Assembly: GCF_000177675.1 (NCBI RefSeq)
Contig: NZ_ADGX01000023.1
Location: forward strand, 1 to 64,000
Direction of reading: 5' to 3'
Length of the DNA: 64,000 bases
Source of the DNA: Parafrankia sp. EUN1f
GTDB taxonomy: Bacteria; Actinomycetota; Actinomycetes; Frankiales; Frankiaceae
The notes under the pieces were generated by a model. It was not told where the DNA came from. It made no database searches and saw only the letters and a program-made list of their open reading frames with translations. Positions 42,269 through 54,273 of this stretch are shown piece by piece. The stretch's first letter is position 1; each line of letters begins with the position of its first letter. Made by a program: the position numbers and the translations under genes.

Positions 42269-45200
42269 GTGAGGTCACGGTTCTTTGCCGACACCCACGT
42301 GCACTCCAGGTACTCGCGGGCCTGCAGCCGCGACTGCGACCTGGAGCATCTGGCGTGGTGGGCGGCCAGAAAAGGCATCCGCGTCGTCGGCACCGGCGAC
42401 TTCACCCATCCGGCGTGGTCGCAGGAGCTGGCGACCAAGCTGGTGCCGGCGGAGCCGGGGCTCTTCCGGCTGCGCCCCGATCTGGAGCGCGACGTGCTCG
42501 CGACGCTGCCGGCCTCGTGCCGGACGGCGACGCGATTCATGATCTCCACTGAGATCTCCACGATCTACAAGCGTGGTGAGCGCACCAGAAAGGTCCATCA
42601 CCTCCTCTACGCACCCGATCGGGAGTCGGCCGGTCGGATCACGTCCGCACTGGCCCGAATCGGCAATCTGGCCGCCGACGGACGCCCGATTCTCGGCCTG
42701 GACTCCCGCGACCTGCTGGAGACAACGCTCGCCGCGGGCGATGGCTGCTACCTCGTCCCCGCCCACGTGTGGACCCCGTGGTTCGCCGTTCTCGGCTCGA
42801 AGTCGGGGTTCGACGCGGTCGAGGACTGCTACGCCGATCTCGCCGACCACGTCTTCGCGCTGGAGACCGGGCTCTCGGCCGACCCGGAGATGTTCTGGCG
42901 GATCTCCGGGCTGGACCGGTACCGGCTCGTCAGCAACTCCGACGCGCATTCGCCGCCGATGCTCGGCCGCGAGGCGACGGCCTTCACCTGCGATCCGGAC
43001 TACTTCTCGATTCTCGCCGCGCTGCGCACCGGGGACGGTTTCGGCGGCACCGTCGAGTTCTTCCCCGAGGAGGGGAAGTACCACCACGACGGGCACCGCA
43101 AGTGCGGGGTCGCACTGACCCCGGAGCAGACCCGTGAGCTCGGCGGGCTCTGCCCGGAGTGCGGCCGCGGGCTGACCGTCGGCGTGCTGAACCGGGTCGA
43201 CACGCTGGCCGACCGGACCGAGTCCACCCGCCCCGAGACCGCGGGGGACGTCACCTCGCTCGTCGCGCTGCCGGAGATCGTCGGCGAGATCCTCGGTGTC
43301 GGCCCGAAGAGCAAGGCGGTCGCCTCCCAGGTGACGACGCTGGTCTCGCGGCTGGGCCCGGAGCTGGGCATCCTCTCGGACGTCCCGCTCGACGCGATCG
43401 CCGAGGTCGGCTCACCGACGCTGGTGGAGGGCATCGGGCGCCTGCGCCGGGGCGAGGTGATCCGCCAGGCGGGGTACGACGGTGAGTACGGCGTCATCCG
43501 GCTCTTCCAGCCGAACGAGCTGAGCGCGGACGCGGGCACGCTGTTCGACGTGCACCCGACGGCCCCCCGGCCGGCCTCCACCGCCGGTGGCGGCGGCAGC
43601 GGCGGCGCCGGCGGTCCGGGTGGACGTAGGGCCCGGGGCTCCGCCCGGCGCAGCGCGCTGGTTCCCGAGGCCGCCACCCCTGTCCCGGAGGCCCCCACCC
43701 CTGTCCCGGAGGCGCCAGGACCCGTCCCGGATGTCCTCGGCTCGGAACCGGGCGGACCCGGCTCTGGCTCCGGCTCCGCGCCGGATGCCGCTCCTGGCGA
43801 CCGTTCCGTCCTCGACGGCCTGGATCCGGACCAGCGGCGCGCGGCGGAGCAGGTCGGTGGGCCGATGCTGGTCCTCGCCGGTCCCGGCACGGGCAAGACC
43901 CGCACGCTGGTGCACGCCATCGCGTACCGGGTGCGGGAGCTTGCGGTGCCCGCCGAGCAGTGCCTCGCCGTGACCTTCACCCGCCGGGCCGCCGGTGAGC
44001 TGCGGGAGCGTCTCGACCTGCTGCTCGGCACGGACACGGCCGGGTCCGTGGCCGGATCCACGGCCGGCTCCGCGGTGACCGCGACGACGTTCCACGGCCT
44101 CGGCCTCGCGATCATCCGCGAGCGGCACGAGGCGCTCGCGCGGGCCGCCGAGGTGCGGGTGGCCGACGACGCCGTCCGCGACGAACTGGTGGACGAGGCC
44201 CTGCACGGTGCCGAGAGCCCGCAGGCCCGGCGCCGGGTCGTTGCCGAGCTGGCCGACCTCAAACGGCGGCGCGCGTTGGGCCGGTCCTACCGGGACCATC
44301 CGTCGGCCGGGGTGCTCGCGCGCTACGACGCCGCGCTGCGCGACCGTAACATGGTCGACCTGGACGATCTGGTGACCCTCCCGCTCGGGCTGCTGAGGTC
44401 GTCCCCCGAGCTGGCCCGGGAGTACCAGCGGCGCTGGCGGCACGTCTGGGTCGACGAGTTCCAGGACATCGACGAGGTGCAGTACGGGCTGCTGCGGGAG
44501 CTGTGCCCGCCCGACGGCGACCTGTGCGCGATCGGTGACCCGGACCAGGCCATCTACAGCTTCCGCGGCGCCGAGGTCGGCTTCTTCCTGCGGTTCGAGC
44601 AGGACCGTCCGGGCGCTCGCCGGGTCTCGCTGACCCGCAACTACCGGTCGACGCCGACGATCGTCGGGGCCGCGCTGGACGCGATCGCGCCCAGCACGTT
44701 CGTCCCCGACCGGGAGCTGCGCGCGGTCACCGGCCAGGACACCGACGGTCCCGTCGTGATCCGGCCGTGCGGGAGCGAGGCGGAGGAGGCGATCGCCGTC
44801 GTCGACCTCATCGAGGAGGCGCTGGGCGGCACCTCGTTCCACTCCCTCGACTCCGGTGCGGTGGACGGATCGGAGCGGGGCAAGCTGTCCTTCGCCGACA
44901 TCGCGGTGCTGTACCGCACGGCCCGCCAGGCCGAGCCCGTGGTCGACGCGCTGCTGCGCCGGGGGTTTCCGTTCCGCCAGCACGGCCACACCCCGCTCGC
45001 GGAGCTGCCCGCGGTGGGGGCCCTGCTCGCGGACCTGCGGGAGCGGGCCGGCGAACCGCCGCGCTCCGTGTCGACCTCCCTGCGGGACGCCGCCGCGCGG
45101 CTGACCGATCTCGCGGCCGGTTCGGACACCGCTCTGGGGGCGGTCCTGCGCTCCGAAGCCGCCGACGGCGGCGGCGGTCGGTCGCCCGGTGCGGCGGAGC

Positions 45201-45742
45201 TACGCCGGGCGGTGGAGCTCCTGGCCCCGGCGGCCGCGGCCGCGGGAACAGATCTCGGCTCCTTCCTCACCGCGGTCGCGCTGGGGACGGAGGTCGACGA
45301 CCTGGATCCCCGGGCGGACCGGATCTCCCTGCTCACGCTGCACGCGTCCAAAGGGCTGGAGTTCGGGCTCGTCATCATCGTCGGCTGCGAGGACGGGCTG
45401 CTGCCGTTGCGCTGGGGCGGGCCGGTGCCCGCCGCAGGGACCACCTCCACCGCCGCAGGGCCTACCGCCGCAGGGGCGACCGCTGCCGCTGCCGTGGCCG
45501 CGGCAGCCGAGGCGGAGGCGGAGGAGCGACGACTGCTGTTCGTGGGTATCACCCGGGCGCGCACCCAGCTCGTTCTCACCCACGCCACGCGACGTCGCCG
45601 CGGCGGAGAGGTCGTCCAGACCGGGCCCTCGCCGTTCCTCTCCGCCATCGACGGGCGGTACCTGGAGAAGCGGACCGGATCGGCGCCGTCCGCCGCGCAG
45701 GTCCGCCGCAGGTCGGAGGGCCGGCAGCTCCGACTGATCTGA
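42269..45742 (+). CDS. EndoQ-type PHP endonuclease fused to UvrD/PcrA-like helicase
   Basis: The 1157-residue protein begins with an EndoQ/TIGR00375 PHP domain. Metal ligands in FADTHVHSRYS (His10, His12), TEIS and NSDAHSPP are visible, as is a zinc-finger segment with KCGV and CPECGRGLTVGVL near residue 300. After a Gly/Pro linker with repeated PVPEAPT words (about 430-515) comes a complete UvrD helicase. It has Walker A AGPGTGKTRTL near 537, VDEFQDIDEVQYG near 727, GDPDQAIYSFRGAE, LTLHASKGLEF and LFVGITRART. EndoQ cleaves 5' of deaminated bases in archaea and some bacteria, so the fusion could nick and unwind. GTG 42269 precedes the PHP motif closely. Confidence 0.88.
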   Translation: MRSRFFADTHVHSRYSRACSRDCDLEHLAWWAARKGIRVVGTGDFTHPAWSQELATKLVPAEPGLFRLRPDLERDVLATLPASCRTATRFMISTEISTIYKRGERTRKVHHLLYAPDRESAGRITSALARIGNLAADGRPILGLDSRDLLETTLAAGDGCYLVPAHVWTPWFAVLGSKSGFDAVEDCYADLADHVFALETGLSADPEMFWRISGLDRYRLVSNSDAHSPPMLGREATAFTCDPDYFSILAALRTGDGFGGTVEFFPEEGKYHHDGHRKCGVALTPEQTRELGGLCPECGRGLTVGVLNRVDTLADRTESTRPETAGDVTSLVALPEIVGEILGVGPKSKAVASQVTTLVSRLGPELGILSDVPLDAIAEVGSPTLVEGIGRLRRGEVIRQAGYDGEYGVIRLFQPNELSADAGTLFDVHPTAPRPASTAGGGGSGGAGGPGGRRARGSARRSALVPEAATPVPEAPTPVPEAPGPVPDVLGSEPGGPGSGSGSAPDAAPGDRSVLDGLDPDQRRAAEQVGGPMLVLAGPGTGKTRTLVHAIAYRVRELAVPAEQCLAVTFTRRAAGELRERLDLLLGTDTAGSVAGSTAGSAVTATTFHGLGLAIIRERHEALARAAEVRVADDAVRDELVDEALHGAESPQARRRVVAELADLKRRRALGRSYRDHPSAGVLARYDAALRDRNMVDLDDLVTLPLGLLRSSPELAREYQRRWRHVWVDEFQDIDEVQYGLLRELCPPDGDLCAIGDPDQAIYSFRGAEVGFFLRFEQDRPGARRVSLTRNYRSTPTIVGAALDAIAPSTFVPDRELRAVTGQDTDGPVVIRPCGSEAEEAIAVVDLIEEALGGTSFHSLDSGAVDGSERGKLSFADIAVLYRTARQAEPVVDALLRRGFPFRQHGHTPLAELPAVGALLADLRERAGEPPRSVSTSLRDAAARLTDLAAGSDTALGAVLRSEAADGGGGRSPGAAELRRAVELLAPAAAAAGTDLGSFLTAVALGTEVDDLDPRADRISLLTLHASKGLEFGLVIIVGCEDGLLPLRWGGPVPAAGTTSTAAGPTAAGATAAAAVAAAAEAEAEERRLLFVGITRARTQLVLTHATRRRRGGEVVQTGPSPFLSAIDGRYLEKRTGSAPSAAQVRRRSEGRQLRLI

Positions 45743-46569: not shown

Positions 46570-47382
46570 CTATTTCACGGGCACGCGCAGGAACAGGCGA
46601 CGTGACCACAGGAAGCCGAGCAGTGCGATCAGGGCGCACCAGCCGATCGCGAGCCACAGGTCGGAGCCTGCCGACGTACCCGTGACCAGGGCGCGCAGGG
46701 TGTCGATCATCGGGGTGAACGGCTGATGCTCCGCGAACTGGCGCAACCCGGTGGGCATCGCGTCGGTCGGCACGAAGCCGCTGCTGATGAACGGCAGGAT
46801 CACCAGGAACAACGGCGTGTTGCTGGCTGTCTCGACGCTGTCCGCCGCCAGGCCCATGCCGACGGTCAGCCAGGTGAGCGCGAACGAGACACCGACCAGC
46901 AGCCCGATCGCGCCGAGCCAGTCGAGCGGGCCGGCGTCGGAGCGGAACCCGAGCCCGAACGCGACCGCCGCCACGATCACCACGGCGAAACCGGTCCTGA
47001 TGACGGCGCCCAGCACATGGCCGGTGAGCACCGAAACCCGGGCGATGTTCATCGTGCGGAACCGGGCGATGATCCCGGTGGTCATGTCGGTCGCGGTCGA
47101 GATCGCGGTGCCGAGCGCGATGCTGGTGACGGTCATGAACAGGATGCCCGGCGTGATGAACTCCAGGTAGTCGCCGCGGTCCCCGGCGCCGGCCCGGCCC
47201 ACCACGCCCTCGGGGCCCGGCAGGCCGGCGCCCAGGGTCCCGCCGAACACGTACACGAACAGCAGCAGGAACACGATCGGCTGCGCGACCAGCATGATCG
47301 ACAGCGAGGGGTAGCGGCGGATGTGCACCAGGTTGCGCCGCAGCATCGTCGCCGAGTCCCGGACGGCGTAGGCGGTGCTCAT
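46570..47382 (-). CDS. ABC-2 type exporter permease (DrrB-like)
   Basis: The 270-residue membrane protein has about six hydrophobic segments, starting with IMLVAQPIVFLLLFVYVFGG. The DrrB-like blocks YLEFITPGILFMTV and ARFRTMNIARVSVLTGHVL follow, then a late PFISSGFVPTDAMPTGLR. It forms the channel for the ATPase encoded just upstream. The ATG at 47382 overlaps the ATPase stop as ATGA. Daunorubicin-resistance-type exporters move hydrophobic drugs or lipids; the cargo here is unknown. Confidence 0.88.
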   Translation of the reverse strand: MSTAYAVRDSATMLRRNLVHIRRYPSLSIMLVAQPIVFLLLFVYVFGGTLGAGLPGPEGVVGRAGAGDRGDYLEFITPGILFMTVTSIALGTAISTATDMTTGIIARFRTMNIARVSVLTGHVLGAVIRTGFAVVIVAAVAFGLGFRSDAGPLDWLGAIGLLVGVSFALTWLTVGMGLAADSVETASNTPLFLVILPFISSGFVPTDAMPTGLRQFAEHQPFTPMIDTLRALVTGTSAGSDLWLAIGWCALIALLGFLWSRRLFLRVPVK

Positions 47383-48338
47383 GCGGGGATCCCCTCTGCG
47401 GTGGGCGCTGCCGCGGCCGTGCGGCCGGTGAGCGCGAGAAACACGTCGTCGAGGTCGGCGGACTGGACCGTGAGGCCGGCGACGGCGTCGTCGTCGAGGC
47501 CGGCGAGCAGGCGGCGCAGCCCGGCGACGCTGCCGTCGCCCGGCACCTGCAGGGTGAGCGCCTCGACGTTGGACGAGGCCTGCGGATGCGCGGCCGCCGC
47601 GGCGGCCAGCCCCGCGGCGTCGGTGAACTGCACCGTCACGTGCCCACCGGGCACCCGCCGCTTCAGCTCGGCGGCCGTACCCTCGGCGACGAGGCGGCCA
47701 CCGTCGAGCACTCCGATCCGGTCGGCGAGCTGGTCGGCCTCGTCGAGGTACTGCGTCGTCAGCAGCACCGTCACGCCGTCGGCGACCTGCTCGCGCACGA
47801 TCGCCCACAGGTCGCGCCGGCTGCGCGGGTCGAGGCCGGCCGTCGGCTCGTCGAGGAAGATCAGTCGGGGCCGGGCGATGAGCGTCATCGCCAGGTCGAG
47901 GCGACGCTTCATGCCGCCCGAGTAGGTCTGCGCCCGCCGGTCGGCCGCGGCGACGAGGTCGAACCGCTCCAGCAGCACCGTCACCGCGGCGGTCGCGGTC
48001 GCCCGCTCCAGGTGGGCGAGCTCGGCCATCAGCCGCAGGTTCTCACGCCCGGTGAGCAACTCGTCGATCGCGGAGAACTGCCCGGTCACACCGATCGTGG
48101 CACGCACCCCGGCAGGCTCGCGCCGGACGTCGAAGCCGCCGACACGGATCTCGCCGCCATCCGGGGCCAGCAGGGTGGAGAGGATGTTGACGATGGTCGT
48201 CTTACCGGCACCGTTGGGCCCGAGGAGCGCGTAGACGGAGCCCTGCGGAACGGTCAGGTCGACGCCGTTGAGCACAGCGTGTTGCCCGTAGGACTTGGTA
48301 AGCCCGGAAACCTCGATCGCGGGCCTGATGGCGGTCAT
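47379..48338 (-). CDS. ABC exporter ATP-binding protein (DrrA-like)
   Basis: The 319-residue protein has Walker A GPNGAGKTT near residue 40 and a Q-loop in GVTGQFSAID. The signature is YSGGMKRRLDLAM, Walker B is LIFLDEPTAGLD, and a C-terminal DrrA-type domain ends in VQSADLDDVFLALTG. It powers the DrrB-like permease and is the first gene of a three-gene operon ending in a MerR regulator. A 53-nt structured repeat lies about 70-120 bp upstream. Confidence 0.92.
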   Translation of the reverse strand: MTAIRPAIEVSGLTKSYGQHAVLNGVDLTVPQGSVYALLGPNGAGKTTIVNILSTLLAPDGGEIRVGGFDVRREPAGVRATIGVTGQFSAIDELLTGRENLRLMAELAHLERATATAAVTVLLERFDLVAAADRRAQTYSGGMKRRLDLAMTLIARPRLIFLDEPTAGLDPRSRRDLWAIVREQVADGVTVLLTTQYLDEADQLADRIGVLDGGRLVAEGTAAELKRRVPGGHVTVQFTDAAGLAAAAAAHPQASSNVEALTLQVPGDGSVAGLRRLLAGLDDDAVAGLTVQSADLDDVFLALTGRTAAAAPTAEGIPA

Positions 48339-48400
48339 GGGGCCATGCTGGAGGCCTGACGCAGGGTCAAGGTCAAGCCTGCGCCCGGAAAGAAATCAGT

Positions 48401-48467
48401 GAGCCTTTTCCATCTCGCGATGCGCGGCTGGCAGGCCGCGAGTCCGAGTCGACGATGGAAGAGGCTC
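48401..48467. repeat. dispersed structured element, copy 1
   Basis: The core at 48409-48461 is 53 bases long. It aligns without gaps to 53046-53098 with 46 of 53 bases identical. Outer arms GAGCC/GGCTC and CCATC/GATGG can pair, enclosing a GC-rich inner part. It lies between two minus-strand genes, upstream of the ABC ATPase gene and downstream of the alpha-oxoamine synthase. Confidence 0.7.
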
Positions 48468-48488
48468 AGTCCAGGCGGCGCAGGGGAA

Positions 48489-49850
48489 TCAGTCCAGGCG
48501 GCGCAGGGGAAAACGCCGGGCCGCGTCGCTCAGGACGTCCAGGAGCGTGTCGATTTCGGCCTCGGTGTTCGCGGCGGTCACCTGGACCCGCACGCCGACC
48601 TGGTCCCGGGGCACCAGCGGGAACGGCGCCACCGTGACGTAGATGCCCCGTTCGAAGAGGAACGCGCCGAGTGCGTCCGCGTCGTCGGGGCCGGGGTCGG
48701 TGAGCGGAATCTCGATGATCGGATGGCCGGAGCTGTTCAGGGTGGCCAGCCCGAGCGAGCGGATCCCGGCCAGCGCCCGGGCGGTCAGGGTGTGCAGGGC
48801 CAGCCTGGCCTGTTCGCCGCGCTCGGCGTTGACCCGTAGCCCGACCTGCGCGGTCGCCAGCGACGCGACCGGCGGCGGGCCGGAGAAGATGTACGGGTTG
48901 GCCATGGTCTTCAGGTAGTCCTTCAGCTCGGTCGGGCAGGTCGCGAAGGCGAGCAGCGAGGAATACGACTTCGAGAAGCCGCCGACCATGACGACGTCGT
49001 CGTAGGACTGCCCGAGATGGCGGACGACGCCGTTCCCGCGCAGCCCGTACGGAGTGGGCTCCGCCGGGGAGCGCTCGCCGATGACGCCGAACCCGTGCGC
49101 GTCATCGATGTAGACGACGGCTTCATGCGACCGGGCGACGGCGAGAATCTCGGCCAGCTGTGGCCCGTTGCCCGTCATGCTGTTCACGCCGTCGATTGCG
49201 ATGACCCGGGGGAAGAGCCGGCACGCGCGCAGCGCGCGGTCCAGCCGGTCCAGCCGGGCCTCCCGGAAGCGGCGCACGGTGGCGCCTCGGCCCGACGCCA
49301 TCGCCGCCCCGTCGTGCACGGAGCTGTGGGCATGCACCTCGACGAAGAGGGCACCCTGGCCGACAAGCGCGGGCAGCACGGACAGATGTATGTGGCTGAT
49401 CGTCGGCAGCAGCAGGGTGTCGGGCGCGCCGAGAAGCTCGGAGAGGCTCTGCTCGATCTCGGTGAACAGCCGCGGATTGGCGATGATCCGGGACCAGCTG
49501 GGGTGTGTTCCCCAACGGTCGAGATACTCCGGCACGGCTTCGATGATTTCGCGGTCCAGATCGAAACCCAGATAGTTGCAGGACGCGAAGTCGATCAGCC
49601 ATCGGCCGTCGATGCGAATGCGTCGCCCCGCGATCTCGTCGACCCGCGAGTCGTAGAACGGTGACTGGCGGCGCATCCGGGCCATTTCCGCCATGACACC
49701 GTAGGGACGGGCCAGCACGTGGCGAAGACCTGCGCCGTCGGCCTGCCGGGCCGGCGCCACGGCCTGCGCCGCGAGCCGCGGATCGTCGGCGGTGGCCGTG
49801 GCGCGGATCGACTCGGCTCCGGCCGGGGCGGAATCCGAGATCTGGGTCAC
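48489..49850 (-). CDS. PLP-dependent alpha-oxoamine synthase (BioF/KBL/SPT-like), second copy
   Basis: The 453-residue fold-type I enzyme has DFASCNYLGFD, VHAHSSVHDGAAMASG, YIDDAHGFGVIG and the PLP-lysine segment GGFSKSYSSLLAF. It belongs to the alpha-oxoamine synthase family. It diverges from the BioF encoded in this window: SKSYSS replaces SKSLGS, and GPPPVASLATAQ is near the C-terminal half. Related enzymes make aminoketone precursors, serine-palmitoyl products or signal molecules, so the product is open. GTG 49850 gives a Ser/Ala-rich start. Divergent from a SAM methyltransferase gene, 594 bp away. Confidence 0.82.
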   Translation of the reverse strand: MTQISDSAPAGAESIRATATADDPRLAAQAVAPARQADGAGLRHVLARPYGVMAEMARMRRQSPFYDSRVDEIAGRRIRIDGRWLIDFASCNYLGFDLDREIIEAVPEYLDRWGTHPSWSRIIANPRLFTEIEQSLSELLGAPDTLLLPTISHIHLSVLPALVGQGALFVEVHAHSSVHDGAAMASGRGATVRRFREARLDRLDRALRACRLFPRVIAIDGVNSMTGNGPQLAEILAVARSHEAVVYIDDAHGFGVIGERSPAEPTPYGLRGNGVVRHLGQSYDDVVMVGGFSKSYSSLLAFATCPTELKDYLKTMANPYIFSGPPPVASLATAQVGLRVNAERGEQARLALHTLTARALAGIRSLGLATLNSSGHPIIEIPLTDPGPDDADALGAFLFERGIYVTVAPFPLVPRDQVGVRVQVTAANTEAEIDTLLDVLSDAARRFPLRRLD

Positions 49851-50197
49851 TCGGACCAGCTTTCGTTCTGCGGGTGACGCAGAGCCGTCGGGGTCATCGC
49901 CGGCACCGACCTTTCGGGACGCCCGAAAGTCCGGTCTCCGGGCATGGGAAACGAGAAAAACCGACGAAAGGCTGCCCGAGTCGTCGGGAAGTCAGGTGAG
50001 GGTGACGCTTGACGAAGAGCCAAGGAAGAACATAGCGGGTCGAACCGGTGCCTTCCACCGCTTTCATGTTTTCTTGGGCGCTATCGCGGGGGCGGCGCGG
50101 GGCGTCCCACGACGACCGGCGCCCCGGGCGGTCTCCGGGCCCTCTCCGGGTGTCCGTGGGGTGGCCTCCTGCGGGCATTCGGGCCCGCCCCGGCCAC

Positions 50198-50289
50198 CTC
50201 GTCCGGCTGGTCCGCGGGCACTCGTCCGGCTGGTGTGCAGGCACTCGTCCGGCTGGTCCGCGGGCACTCGTCCGGCTGGTGTGCAGGCA
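50198..50289. repeat. four tandem copies of a 23-bp unit (two 46-bp periods)
   Basis: Units at 50198-50220, 50221-50243, 50244-50266 and 50267-50289 all begin CTCGTCCGGCTGGT. They alternate between CCGCGGGCA and GTGCAGGCA endings, so copies 1 and 3 are identical and copies 2 and 4 are identical. The array sits about 155 bp before the methyltransferase start. Confidence 0.92.
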
Positions 50290-50431
50290 GCGCAACGACC
50301 GGCCGAACGGCAGGGCGAACGAGGGCACCGGATCGGGCCGCGTGCCGACCCGCGGCGGGCCCGTCGGCGCCCGCCGCGGGAGCAGGCCTTTCGACGCGGC
50401 CACAGGAAACAACCCGGCGCGGCAGTGGTGT

Positions 50432-50437
50432 TATCGT
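50432..50437 (+). promoter_or_regulatory. -10 box of leaderless methyltransferase gene
   Basis: TATCGT ends 7 bases before the ATG at 50445, with no ribosome site. A leaderless transcript is expected. Confidence 0.5.
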
Positions 50438-50444
50438 GCCCGGC

Positions 50445-51266
50445 ATGTCCGAGACCGTGTCCGCTTCGAACAGCCCGTCGTCGAGCGCGCCGGCTTCGGC
50501 CAGGCCCGCGCATGAGGGCCCGCCGCCCATCCGTGACCTCCCGTACGCGGGCTTCGGCCTGAACAGGTCGGTCACGCTCTTCAAGGCTCACCGCAAGGAG
50601 CCGGTCGACCCGGCCGGGTTCTATTCGCTCATCGCGGCCGACTCCGTCCGCCAGCTGGAGCGGTACACCTCCCTGGCCGGCCAGCTGGTGCTCGACGTCG
50701 GCGGCGGCCCGGGTTACTTCCGGTCCGCCTTCCTGGACGCGGGCGCCCGGTATTACTGGGTTGAGCCCGACGTCTCCGAGATGGAGGCCGGCGGCATCGA
50801 CGTTCCGGGGCGAGTCCGCGGCAGCGCGCTCGAACTGCCGTTCCGCTCCGACTCGATCGACCTCTGCTACAGCTCGAACGTCCTTGAGCATGTGCCCGAC
50901 CCGTGGCGGATGTGCTCGGAGCTGGTGCGGGTCACCCAGCCCGGTGGGCTCATCTTCCTCAGCTACACCAACTGGCTCTCCCCGTGGGGCGGCCACGAGA
51001 CCGCGCCGTGGCACTACCTCGGGGGCCACCGGGCCGCCGAGCGGTTCCGCAAGCGTGAGGGCAAGGCACCGAAGAACCGGTTCGGCGAGACCCTGTTCCC
51101 GGTTTCCGTCGCCGGCACCCTCGCCTGGGCACGCCAGCGCAACGACGTCGTGGTCGTCGACGCGATGCCGCGCTATCTGCCGGACTGGGCGAAGGTCATC
51201 CTCCGCGTCCCCGGCGCCCGCGAGGTCGTCACCTGGAACCTCGCGATGGTCCTGCGCAAGGTTTAG
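50445..51266 (+). CDS. class I SAM-dependent methyltransferase
   Basis: The 273-residue protein has motif I VLDVGGGPGYF, then RGSALELPF, the family YSSNVLEHVPDP and post-motif TQPGGLIFLSYTNW. It is of the Methyltransf_11 type, common for lipid, sugar or natural-product methylation. The N-terminal 40 residues are Ser/Ala-rich. A mid-C-terminal segment KNRFGETLFPV is lineage-specific in look. Target unknown. The start is supported by a -10 box seven bases upstream. It shares a divergent region with the second alpha-oxoamine synthase. Confidence 0.85.
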   Translation: MSETVSASNSPSSSAPASARPAHEGPPPIRDLPYAGFGLNRSVTLFKAHRKEPVDPAGFYSLIAADSVRQLERYTSLAGQLVLDVGGGPGYFRSAFLDAGARYYWVEPDVSEMEAGGIDVPGRVRGSALELPFRSDSIDLCYSSNVLEHVPDPWRMCSELVRVTQPGGLIFLSYTNWLSPWGGHETAPWHYLGGHRAAERFRKREGKAPKNRFGETLFPVSVAGTLAWARQRNDVVVVDAMPRYLPDWAKVILRVPGAREVVTWNLAMVLRKV

Positions 51267-51323
51267 CGCAGCGTCGTCTGGCTCAGCGTCTCAGCAGGGC
51301 CTCGCCGTCGACCGGGAGCAGCA

Positions 51324-51375
51324 CCCGCCCGAAGTGCCCGCCCGAAGTGCCCGCCCGAAGTGCCCGCCCGAAGTG
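51324..51375. repeat. four tandem copies of a 13-bp unit
   Basis: Perfect copies of CCCGCCCGAAGTG occur at 51324-51336, 51337-51349, 51350-51362 and 51363-51375. The last unit runs into the terminator stem. They lie in the convergent gap between the methyltransferase and the ABC binding protein. Confidence 0.93.
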
Positions 51376-51417
51376 TGGAGGATTTCGGTCGTTCCGACGA
51401 CCGAGATCCTCCACACT
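51372..51417. terminator. strong bidirectional hairpin between convergent genes
   Basis: AGTGTGGAGGAT at 51372-51383 pairs perfectly with ATCCTCCACACT at 51406-51417. Inside, TCGGTCGT pairs with ACGACCGA. It lies between gene ends at 51266 and 51468. Confidence 0.8.
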
Positions 51418-51467
51418 TGTCTGGCAGCAAAGCCAGGTGTGGCGGGCGGCCAGCGGCCGCGGCCAGC

Positions 51468-52745
51468 TCAGTGGTCGAGGCGCTGGCCGCACCACAGGGA
51501 GGCGTTCTGGGCGCCGGGCGCCTCGTTGCGGACGATGTCGTAGCCGGTGCCCGCGTTGTTGACCTGTACGAAGCTGTAGCAGCTGCTGATCTTGCCGAAG
51601 TCGTTGCGGAAGTCCACGTCGCCGGCCAGCAGGCCGGAGGCGTTGTAGCCCTTGGACCCGCGCAGGGTGTCGATGAAACCGGTGCGGGTCGGGCAGGGGC
51701 CGGCGAGTTCGAGCCCGTGCACGAAGACGTCCGTGAGGATGTAGGACACCAGCGCGAGTTCCTGGTCGGGCCGGTCCAGCTGGGGCGCGAACTCGCTCAT
51801 CGCGTTCAGGTAGATCTGCTGTGACGGGGTGCGTGCCTCGAAGGGCACGTAGTTGACGAAGGTGCTCAGGCCGGCCAGCGCGTTGCCCTGCCGGGCCAGC
51901 AGGCTCGGGTCGTAGCCGTTGGCGGCGAGCATGACTCTCGGCCTCAGTTCGATCCGCTGCCCCGCCCGCATGATGTCGGCGAGCTCGTCACTGGAGATGG
52001 GCGCGATGATCGTGTCCGCGCCCGAGGCCTTGAGTTGCTGGGCCATCGCCTCGGGCGTGATCGTGTTCAGGTTCCAGATGAACGGGCCGGGCAGGATTCT
52101 GATTCCGGTGGCGACGAGACTATCCACGATCTTGCTGCTGAAGTCCTGCGGGGCGTCACCGATATCGGTCCTGATGACGGCGGCGGTGGTACCTCCCCGT
52201 GCTTTCACGTACCGGCCGAAGGTGTCGACGGACGGGCCGCTGCTGAACACGTAGGAGTACGCGAACATGTTCTGGTATTCGGACCACACGCCCTCGGCTG
52301 GCAGCCCGGCAACCGGAATATTGAGGTCGTGAAGGTAGTCAGCGCCGCCGGAGGCCGCCGTTGTCGCCTCCACCAGGCCGAAGACCTTTTTCCGATCGAT
52401 GAGGTCACGGACGACCTCATTATTCGTGGCCGGGCTGGACTCGTCATCCCGCACGGTGGCGACGATGCGCCGGCCGTGGATTCCACCGTCGGCGTTCGCC
52501 AGGCCGATGCGTGCGTCGAAGCCGCTGCGCATCGCCGCCAGTGGTTTCGCCAGCGGGCCCGTGTCCGGGACGACGAACCCGATCTGGATCTCGTCGTCCG
52601 TCACTCCAGGTGCGATACAGCCGGCCTTCCGTGAGCTGGCGCCGTCGTCGGCGGACCCGACCAGGGAACACCCGGTGAGAGCGATCACGGCGGATGCGAC
52701 GAGCCCGCCTGCCACTCGTAGCTTCCGGTGGTGACGACGGGCCAT
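51468..52745 (-). CDS. branched-chain amino acid-type ABC substrate-binding lipoprotein
   Basis: The 425-residue protein has a basic start, a hydrophobic stretch and a lipobox with LTGC at 23-26, so it is exported and lipid-anchored. The mature part shows the periplasmic-binding fold of the LivJ type, with IQIGFVVPDTGPL, RRIVATVRDDESSP and a two-lobed pattern. Ligand unknown. No permease or ATPase genes are adjacent, so it is an orphan receptor that must dock with a transporter encoded elsewhere, or acts as a sensor. A GGAGGAG ribosome site precedes the ATG. A palindrome cluster lies 260-290 bp upstream. Confidence 0.87.
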   Translation of the reverse strand: MARRHHRKLRVAGGLVASAVIALTGCSLVGSADDGASSRKAGCIAPGVTDDEIQIGFVVPDTGPLAKPLAAMRSGFDARIGLANADGGIHGRRIVATVRDDESSPATNNEVVRDLIDRKKVFGLVEATTAASGGADYLHDLNIPVAGLPAEGVWSEYQNMFAYSYVFSSGPSVDTFGRYVKARGGTTAAVIRTDIGDAPQDFSSKIVDSLVATGIRILPGPFIWNLNTITPEAMAQQLKASGADTIIAPISSDELADIMRAGQRIELRPRVMLAANGYDPSLLARQGNALAGLSTFVNYVPFEARTPSQQIYLNAMSEFAPQLDRPDQELALVSYILTDVFVHGLELAGPCPTRTGFIDTLRGSKGYNASGLLAGDVDFRNDFGKISSCYSFVQVNNAGTGYDIVRNEAPGAQNASLWCGQRLDH

Positions 52746-52993
52746 CTGTGCTCCTCCGCAGGATGCGATTAGTCAGGATCGGTGGCCTGGGCGGGACCTG
52801 GATCCGGATGTCGAACGGGCGTCTTCGAGCCCGTGGCGACCGCGATCCAGGGCACGAAAACAACGTTTCTGGCCAGGAGCTTCGTGATTCTCGTCCTGGG
52901 TGATGCGTGCGCGCGGCCTGGTTGTCCTTTTCGGGTACGGGCATGCCGGAGCTGCCCGGGTCTTCTGTTTGGTTGGACGACTTCCGGTCGCCA

Positions 52994-53035
52994 GGTTCAC
53001 GGTGAACCGGCGTTCATTTGATGAACCGCCGTTCA
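52994..53035. promoter_or_regulatory. cluster of TGAAC-type palindromes (operator-like)
   Basis: GGTTCACGGTGAACC at 52994-53008 is a perfect inverted repeat around one base. TGAACCGGCGTTCA at 53003-53016 and TGAACCGCCGTTCA at 53022-53035 are both TGAAC-N4-GTTCA, centred 19 bp apart. The GAAC-N4-GTTC core is shared with LexA boxes, but the flanks and spacer do not match the full actinobacterial consensus. A dimeric repressor is likely; its identity is unknown. Confidence 0.6.
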
Positions 53036-53045
53036 ATGCCCCTCG

Positions 53046-53098
53046 TCCATCTCGCGGTCCGAGGCCGGGATGCCGCGGGTCCGAGTCGACGATGGAAG
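53046..53098. repeat. dispersed structured element, copy 2
   Basis: The sequence is 53 bases with the same ends (TCCATCTCGCG and CGACGATGGAAG) as copy 1 and no gaps. TCCATC and GATGGA arms pair. It is again in a gap between two minus-strand genes, upstream of the binding-protein gene and downstream of aat. Confidence 0.7.
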
Positions 53099-53394
53099 AA
53101 GATCAATGCGGTCGATCGATTTCGACCACAATACAGATGGCTGTCGCTTTGTGCATGGAATGCCTTCAGGTGTACTTGTTACGTCAAAGCTGACATCGAC
53201 TCAGAATTTCGGGGCGCAACGGATGTACCGGCCTATTTCGACTTCGACCTCGACTTCGGCGCGGACCTGATCGATCGCGGCCGGAATCAGAGCGCGTCCC
53301 GCGGAATCAGGGCGCGTCCCGGATGCGTACAAGGTGTGCCCCGCGTTTCGGTGGTGCGGGGCGCGGGCTGGCGCGCCGGATGCGTCCGGTTCGC

Positions 53395-54273
53395 TCAGGC
53401 GTCGGCCGGCCGGGGCCGGCTCTGCGGTGGCCTGCGCGGCGGCGCGAGGCGGGAGACAGGCAGGCGGTCGCATTCGAGGCGGATGCGGTCATCACGGACC
53501 GCCCGCAGGGTCGCGAGGAACTCCGCGCGCGGAATCTCCTGCACGCCGAGCGTGATCAGGTGCTCGGTGGTGAGCTGCGTGTCGAGGAGCACCCCGCCGG
53601 CCTGCCCGAAGCGGTCCAGGAAGTCGACCAGGGCGACCTTCGACGCGTCCGAGGCGCGGTGGAACATGGACTCACCGCAGAAGATCCGCCCGACGAGCAC
53701 GCCGTACATCCCGCCGACCAGGCGGTCGTCGTCCCAGATCTCGATGCTGTGGGCCCAGCCGCAGGCATGCAGTTCGGCGAAGCCCTCAATGAGGTCCTCG
53801 GTTATCCACTGGTGCGGGCCGTCCCGCCGGCAGTGGCGCACGACATCCACGAAGGATTCGTTCATGGTGCTGGTCCAGCTGCTGTTGCGCAGACGTTTGA
53901 CCAGCGAGCGGCGGACCCGCATCGTGCCGGGCGCGAGCACGGTCCGCGGATCCGGGCACCACCAGGGCGGGTCCAGCAGCTCCGGGTTCCCACCGGCGGT
54001 CCGGCGGCGGCGACCGGTCCGCGCGGCCGGGATCCGGGGAATCGCCCCGCGGGCGACGGCCACGCCCAGTGCCGCGCGCAGCTCGTCGGCCTCGGCGGGA
54101 TCGTCGGTCGGCCACGGGAAGGCCCCCTGGCGGTAGGCCCCGACCAGGGTCGCCGGGGTCATCCCGCCGCCGGCGGCGACCGGCCCGTATGACGGGGCCT
54201 GATCCAGGTACCGGGCCAGGATCGGATGGTCCCAGCCCGAGGAGGGCGGTTCGGGGCTCGGTGGGGTCAGCAT
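53395..54273 (-). CDS. aat: leucyl/phenylalanyl-tRNA-protein transferase
   Basis: The 292-residue enzyme has AYRQGAFPWP near the N-terminus and WWCPDPRTVLAPG. Later come WITEDLIEGFAELHACGWAHSIEIW and GGMYGVLVGRIFCGESMF, all family signatures. It adds Leu or Phe to N-terminal Arg or Lys of proteins, marking them for ClpS-ClpAP. An Arg-rich insertion after residue 80 is unusual. The ATG is inside the stop region of the upstream GGDEF-EAL gene, overlapping by 7 bases, so the two are translationally coupled. Confidence 0.92.
   Translation of the reverse strand: MLTPPSPEPPSSGWDHPILARYLDQAPSYGPVAAGGGMTPATLVGAYRQGAFPWPTDDPAEADELRAALGVAVARGAIPRIPAARTGRRRRTAGGNPELLDPPWWCPDPRTVLAPGTMRVRRSLVKRLRNSSWTSTMNESFVDVVRHCRRDGPHQWITEDLIEGFAELHACGWAHSIEIWDDDRLVGGMYGVLVGRIFCGESMFHRASDASKVALVDFLDRFGQAGGVLLDTQLTTEHLITLGVQEIPRAEFLATLRAVRDDRIRLECDRLPVSRLAPPRRPPQSRPRPADA

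Follow-up and report, generated by a model that had tools for sequence, protein, structure and literature searches.

A dispersed repeat of about 68 bp in Parafrankia sp. EUN1f, very probably a MITE with the ends of an IS5-family insertion sequence

The locus and the two window copies

The window, the whole stretch of DNA that was analysed (64,000 nucleotides from Parafrankia sp. EUN1f), contains two 53-nt stretches (48409-48461 and 53046-53098), each in a gap flanked by two minus-strand genes, which match without gaps at 46 positions (7 mismatches by hand count) and which both contain the arms TCCATC/GATGGA. In all these points the first-pass annotation, which had been made from the letters alone, was correct. 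The similarity is far beyond chance (copy 2 has E = 3.7e-12 when the 9.35-Mb genome is searched with copy 1), and the two 53-nt stretches each form the core of a copy of a dispersed element of about 68 bp. The full unit exceeds them, being 67 nt long in both window copies, each of which lies between 3-bp direct repeats. The element is very probably a miniature inverted-repeat transposable element (MITE) and is so named in the following list (G004 and G001 are other genomes discussed below):

47379-48338, minus strand, ABC ATPase gene; copy 1 lies 62 bp upstream
48398-48400, no strand, left 3-bp target site duplication AGT of copy 1 (from the sequence and the single AGT at the orthologous site in G004)
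48401-48467, plus strand, MITE copy 1, 67 bp, ends GAGCCTTTTCCATC ... GATGGAAGAGGCTC; missing at the orthologous site in G004
48401-48414, plus strand, left terminal inverted repeat of copy 1, which matches the end of the G001 insertion sequence at all 14 positions
48454-48467, minus strand, right terminal inverted repeat of copy 1 (from the sequence and its pairing in the fold)
48468-48470, no strand, right 3-bp target site duplication AGT of copy 1 (from the sequence and the orthologous site in G004)
48489-49850, minus strand, class I/II aminotransferase-fold gene; copy 1 lies 21 bp past the gene
51468-52745, minus strand, periplasmic-binding-protein gene; copy 2 lies ~290 bp upstream
53035-53037, no strand, left 3-bp target site duplication AAT of copy 2 (from the sequence and the flank test)
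53038-53104, plus strand, MITE copy 2, 67 bp, with degenerate outer arms (GCCCCTCGTCCATC ... GATGGAAGAAGATC)
53105-53107, no strand, right 3-bp target site duplication AAT of copy 2 (from the sequence and the flank test)
53395-54273, minus strand, Leu/Phe-tRNA-protein transferase gene; copy 2 lies ~290 bp past the gene

The nearness of both stretches to the upstream regions of ABC-transport genes, to which the first-pass annotation had drawn attention, is real as far as the positions go, but it seems coincidental, since the orientation of the copies relative to genes has no significant bias and the arrangement of the neighbouring genes varies from copy to copy. Two other features of the window are recorded here. 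Adjoining copy 1, where the aminotransferase-fold gene has its stop codon, there is a 23-bp tandem duplication (48468-48513; TCAGTCCAGGCGGCGCAGGGGAA in one register), of which G004 has a single 23-bp stretch. A long plus-strand gene (42299-45742) appears by eye to join a PHP-type domain to a UvrD-type helicase.

Anatomy, copy number and target sites

The consensus unit, GAGCCTTTTCCATCTCACGGTSCACGGTCAGGGATGCCGCRGGTCCGAGTCGACGATGGAAAAGGCTC, is 68 bp long in 70 of 113 well-aligned copies and 67-69 bp in 100 of them. The copies end in GAGCCTTTTCCATC/GATGGAAAAGGCTC and have 14-bp terminal inverted repeats; the interior forms an inner hairpin continuing that of the ends, and the element is non-coding. 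The structure that had been noticed by eye is that of the paired inverted repeats. With at most one mismatch the end motif has 177 matches in the genome versus 2 for the reversed control. The copies are old, the nearest neighbour being at a median identity of 85% over all copies. A second interior type (CACGTTTGTCGAGCGCTGTAGCCGCAGGTCGGAG) with the same ends looks younger, since its best pairs are 95-98% identical.

The genome of strain EUN1f harbours at least 127 distinct copies. This number comes from a covariance model built from 37 copies, which gave 134 matches, of which 127 places were left after double-strand and very weak matches had been dropped; it is a lower bound because only 150 of 22,007 first-look candidates were scored. 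Thus, the element is a truly repeated and structured one, as had been proposed, and the case in which the two window stretches were the only copies in the genome does not apply, although a strict pattern search of the genome returned just these two. Searching by similarity from copy 1 gave 42 matches, among them the 37 copies behind the covariance model. Among the congeners, G004 has at least 107 copies and four others have none at E 0.01, and another genus of the family is represented by four genomes with two or three weak matches each, which have similar ends and a different interior. An exact 18-mer scan of 84,980 species genomes yielded scattered single matches in unrelated taxa only, which are taken as chance, and a plasmid search with copy 1 and its flanks gave no match.

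The flanks follow the pattern C-ANT, element, ANT-G, which is a 3-bp direct repeat with the consensus ANT (AGT/AGT for copy 1 and AAT/AAT for copy 2). Exact 3-bp repeats flank 40 of 113 copies versus 11.4 expected, and the middle base of ANT agrees in 79 of 113 versus 30.1 expected (maximum 48 across 10,000 shuffles). Where both flanks are ANT (n = 43) the middle base is identical in 36 cases. The bases immediately outside the repeats agree no better than chance (35 versus 31.6 expected).

For copy 1 the corresponding empty site is found in G004. A BLAST search with a 2-kb query around this copy finds 97-98% identity on both sides with the element absent: where G004 has AAATCAGTCCAGGCGG, with a single AGT, the window has AAATCAGT-element-AGTCCAGGCGG. 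In a longer reading of the site G004 has AAATCAGTCCAGGCGGCGCAGGGG, and the window has AAATCAGT, the element, AGTCCAGGCGGCGCAGGGG and then the second 23-bp copy. Copy 2 has a counterpart in G004 at the corresponding distance (C22:36313-36391). When 20 further sites were tested with joined flanks, four were cleanly empty in G004, each with one ANT-type target (in one case the filled counterpart has a decayed left repeat), three were other deletions or truncations, and most of the remaining ones matched as two pieces about one element apart, as expected if they are filled. With copy 1 there are, therefore, five clean empty sites, which amounts to a presence/absence polymorphism, and such sites could serve as markers between close species. 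It should be noted, however, that the polymorphic copies, copy 1 included, have no near-identical donor, so that the empty sites may reflect precise losses rather than places that were never hit; slippage across the palindrome could have removed the element precisely from G004, and this is no less possible than a fresh insertion in strain EUN1f.

The partner insertion sequence

When the family was searched with the 14-bp end, matches were seen in G001 and G043 that lie about 75-600 bp from contig ends, which is where they are to be expected because multi-copy insertion sequences break assemblies. In G001, contigs run from flanking DNA through the exact end GAGCCTTTTCCATC into an IS5-type transposase with the Pfam domains HTH_Tnp_4 and DDE_Tnp_4, the gene being partial since the contigs end inside it. 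Relatives of this transposase are present in 15 of the 35 family genomes searched; for the one in G048 the NCBIfam IS5 model gives 115.9 bits, which is under its cut-off of 140. In G013 and G043 there are full-length relatives of 1003 bp with GAGCC ends and with ANT flanks that for the most part agree (CAAT..AATG, TAAT..AATA and CACT..ACTG; CCGT..AGTG is imperfect). From its ANT target duplication the IS5-family partner is presumably of the ISL2-type subgroup.

In the genome of strain EUN1f and in G004, the two copy-rich genomes, no transposase of the G001 kind was found, which counts against present mobility of the element. The DDE_Tnp_1 and DDE_Tnp_4 genes of strain EUN1f were considered as partners and rejected, as they have no matching ends. 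Around orphan end motifs of this genome no insertion sequence was seen (open reading frames were listed for one motif), and these motifs resemble truncated copies or other short elements. A more distant second lineage of IS5-type elements (L291, L297, L298, L299), 35-37% identical, occurs in several family genomes; it has GAGCCTTTCCC-like ends and ANT-like flanks.

Nature of the element and its setting at gene ends

The ANT target duplications, the empty orthologous sites and the transposase-bearing element with an identical end together identify the window stretches, with high confidence, as copies of a dispersed MITE of about 68 bp with the ends of an IS5-family insertion sequence, and not as a structured RNA or regulatory element. 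Against this counts that the MITE is homologous to the insertion sequences over no more than ~14-18 bp at the ends. The IS5-family elements of the Frankiaceae share with the MITE the 14-bp end GAGCCTTTTCCATC (identical in G001) and the 3-bp ANT duplication, but they are about 1 kb long and carry a transposase gene, whereas the MITE is non-coding and has an unrelated interior. As judged from the sequences, the MITE is not self-mobile and most likely owes its spread to the enzyme of a larger element with the same ends: an IS5-type transposase would have mobilised it in trans by cutting at the GAGCCTTTTCCATC ends, the element would have been inserted at C-ANT-G sites with duplication of 3 bp, and in strain EUN1f it would now be immobile for want of a transposase source.

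The first-pass annotation had implied a structured RNA or regulatory element near ABC-transport genes, i.e., a riboswitch, leader or small RNA family upstream of transport genes. The RNA of copy 1 indeed has a strong fold, whichever strand is taken (z -6.0 and -4.2), and in a hand-built structure 84.9% of the cells are paired versus 34-47% in slid controls, although this is mostly the inverted repeat itself. For copy 2, however, the fold is no better than those of shuffled sequences, the consensus that RNAalifold derived from 37 copies is weak and lacks covariation support, and Rfam has no match in the window at the gathering threshold, in agreement with the earlier failure to recognise a known riboswitch family. 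The comparison of paired changes between the arms, which had been suggested as a check, is positive in part: there are 43 shared non-consensus cells versus 19 expected, and the arms are slightly more alike within a copy (83.9%) than between copies (80.6%; shuffle maximum 82.3%), which also holds in a non-redundant set of 67. Recognition of both ends by the transposase, subfamily inheritance or arm-to-arm conversion would each explain such likeness, which alone is thus no evidence of RNA function. Gene calls from a purpose-written, rough codon-usage gene finder place 103 of the 127 copies fully between genes, 21 touching or slightly overlapping a gene end and 3 overlapping by more than 30 bases, so that 124 are outside predicted genes or merely touch them. 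In tandem context (n = 84) the orientation relative to the flanking genes has no significant bias (35 same, 49 opposite; p 0.16), and 59 copies are nearer to a gene 3' end and 25 to a 5' end, which argues against a regulatory RNA upstream of genes. Taken with the target duplications and empty sites, this makes the RNA explanation highly improbable.

The same setting could be that of a family of bidirectional transcription terminators kept by selection at gene ends, for which speak the 3' bias and the fact that the element is abutted or overlapped by a few bases by 21 predicted gene 3' ends and by no 5' end. The copies are not enriched between convergent genes (12/118 versus 49/299 background gene pairs), however, the consensus has no U-tract after the hairpin, and the 3' bias is equally expected if insertions hitting genes or promoters are purged. 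A terminator function is therefore not needed and is very unlikely. Less unlikely, but still doubtful, is that some copies of the MITE have been adopted by the host as gene-end modules, with a hairpin stabilising or ending mRNAs and arms kept complementary by selection, for which the coordinated arm changes above chance are cited. Judging from its sequence, the element end (T|GA) can supply a TGA stop at the 21 predicted gene 3' ends; MITE ends may in this way provide stop codons to many predicted genes.

Short intergenic palindromes in more than 100 copies, some of them arrayed in tandem every ~71 bp (one unit and 3 bp), also recall REP/BIME-type repeats. REPs have a RAYT (Y1 tyrosine) transposase as partner, and insertion of the RAYT/IS200 type makes no target duplication. 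The clear 3-bp ANT duplication of the Parafrankia element and the match of its ends to an IS5-type element leave spreading by a RAYT with scarcely any probability. As a MITE the element is ordinary in kind. Like other bacterial MITEs, for example RUP of pneumococcus and the Correia elements of Neisseria, it is short and non-coding, has terminal inverted repeats, a target duplication and many intergenic copies, and was presumably moved in trans. RUP and the Correia elements, however, have the target TA and other ends, and the Parafrankia element is shorter than most MITEs and has an interior that extends the end hairpin. A high-copy repeat of a probably nitrogen-fixing actinobacterial group thus very probably gains an identity, the MITE of an IS5-type element, together with a probable partner transposase. 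In the literature on Frankia MITEs and Parafrankia transposable elements no earlier description was found, and the word MITE is absent from the main text of a 2009 survey of Frankia insertion sequences (PMC2770080).

Inverted-repeat stretches of ~55-80 bp with common GAGCCTTTTCC ends and differing interiors were seen in G048 and G049 (L270, L273, L275, L276), which suggests further MITE families in another genus. Finally, a 217-bp stretch (L202:1786-2002, i.e., G000:C181:6485-6701) with inverted GAACCTTTTCC-type ends and a GATCTGAGGATC/GATCCTCAGATC interior is perhaps a larger non-autonomous relative.
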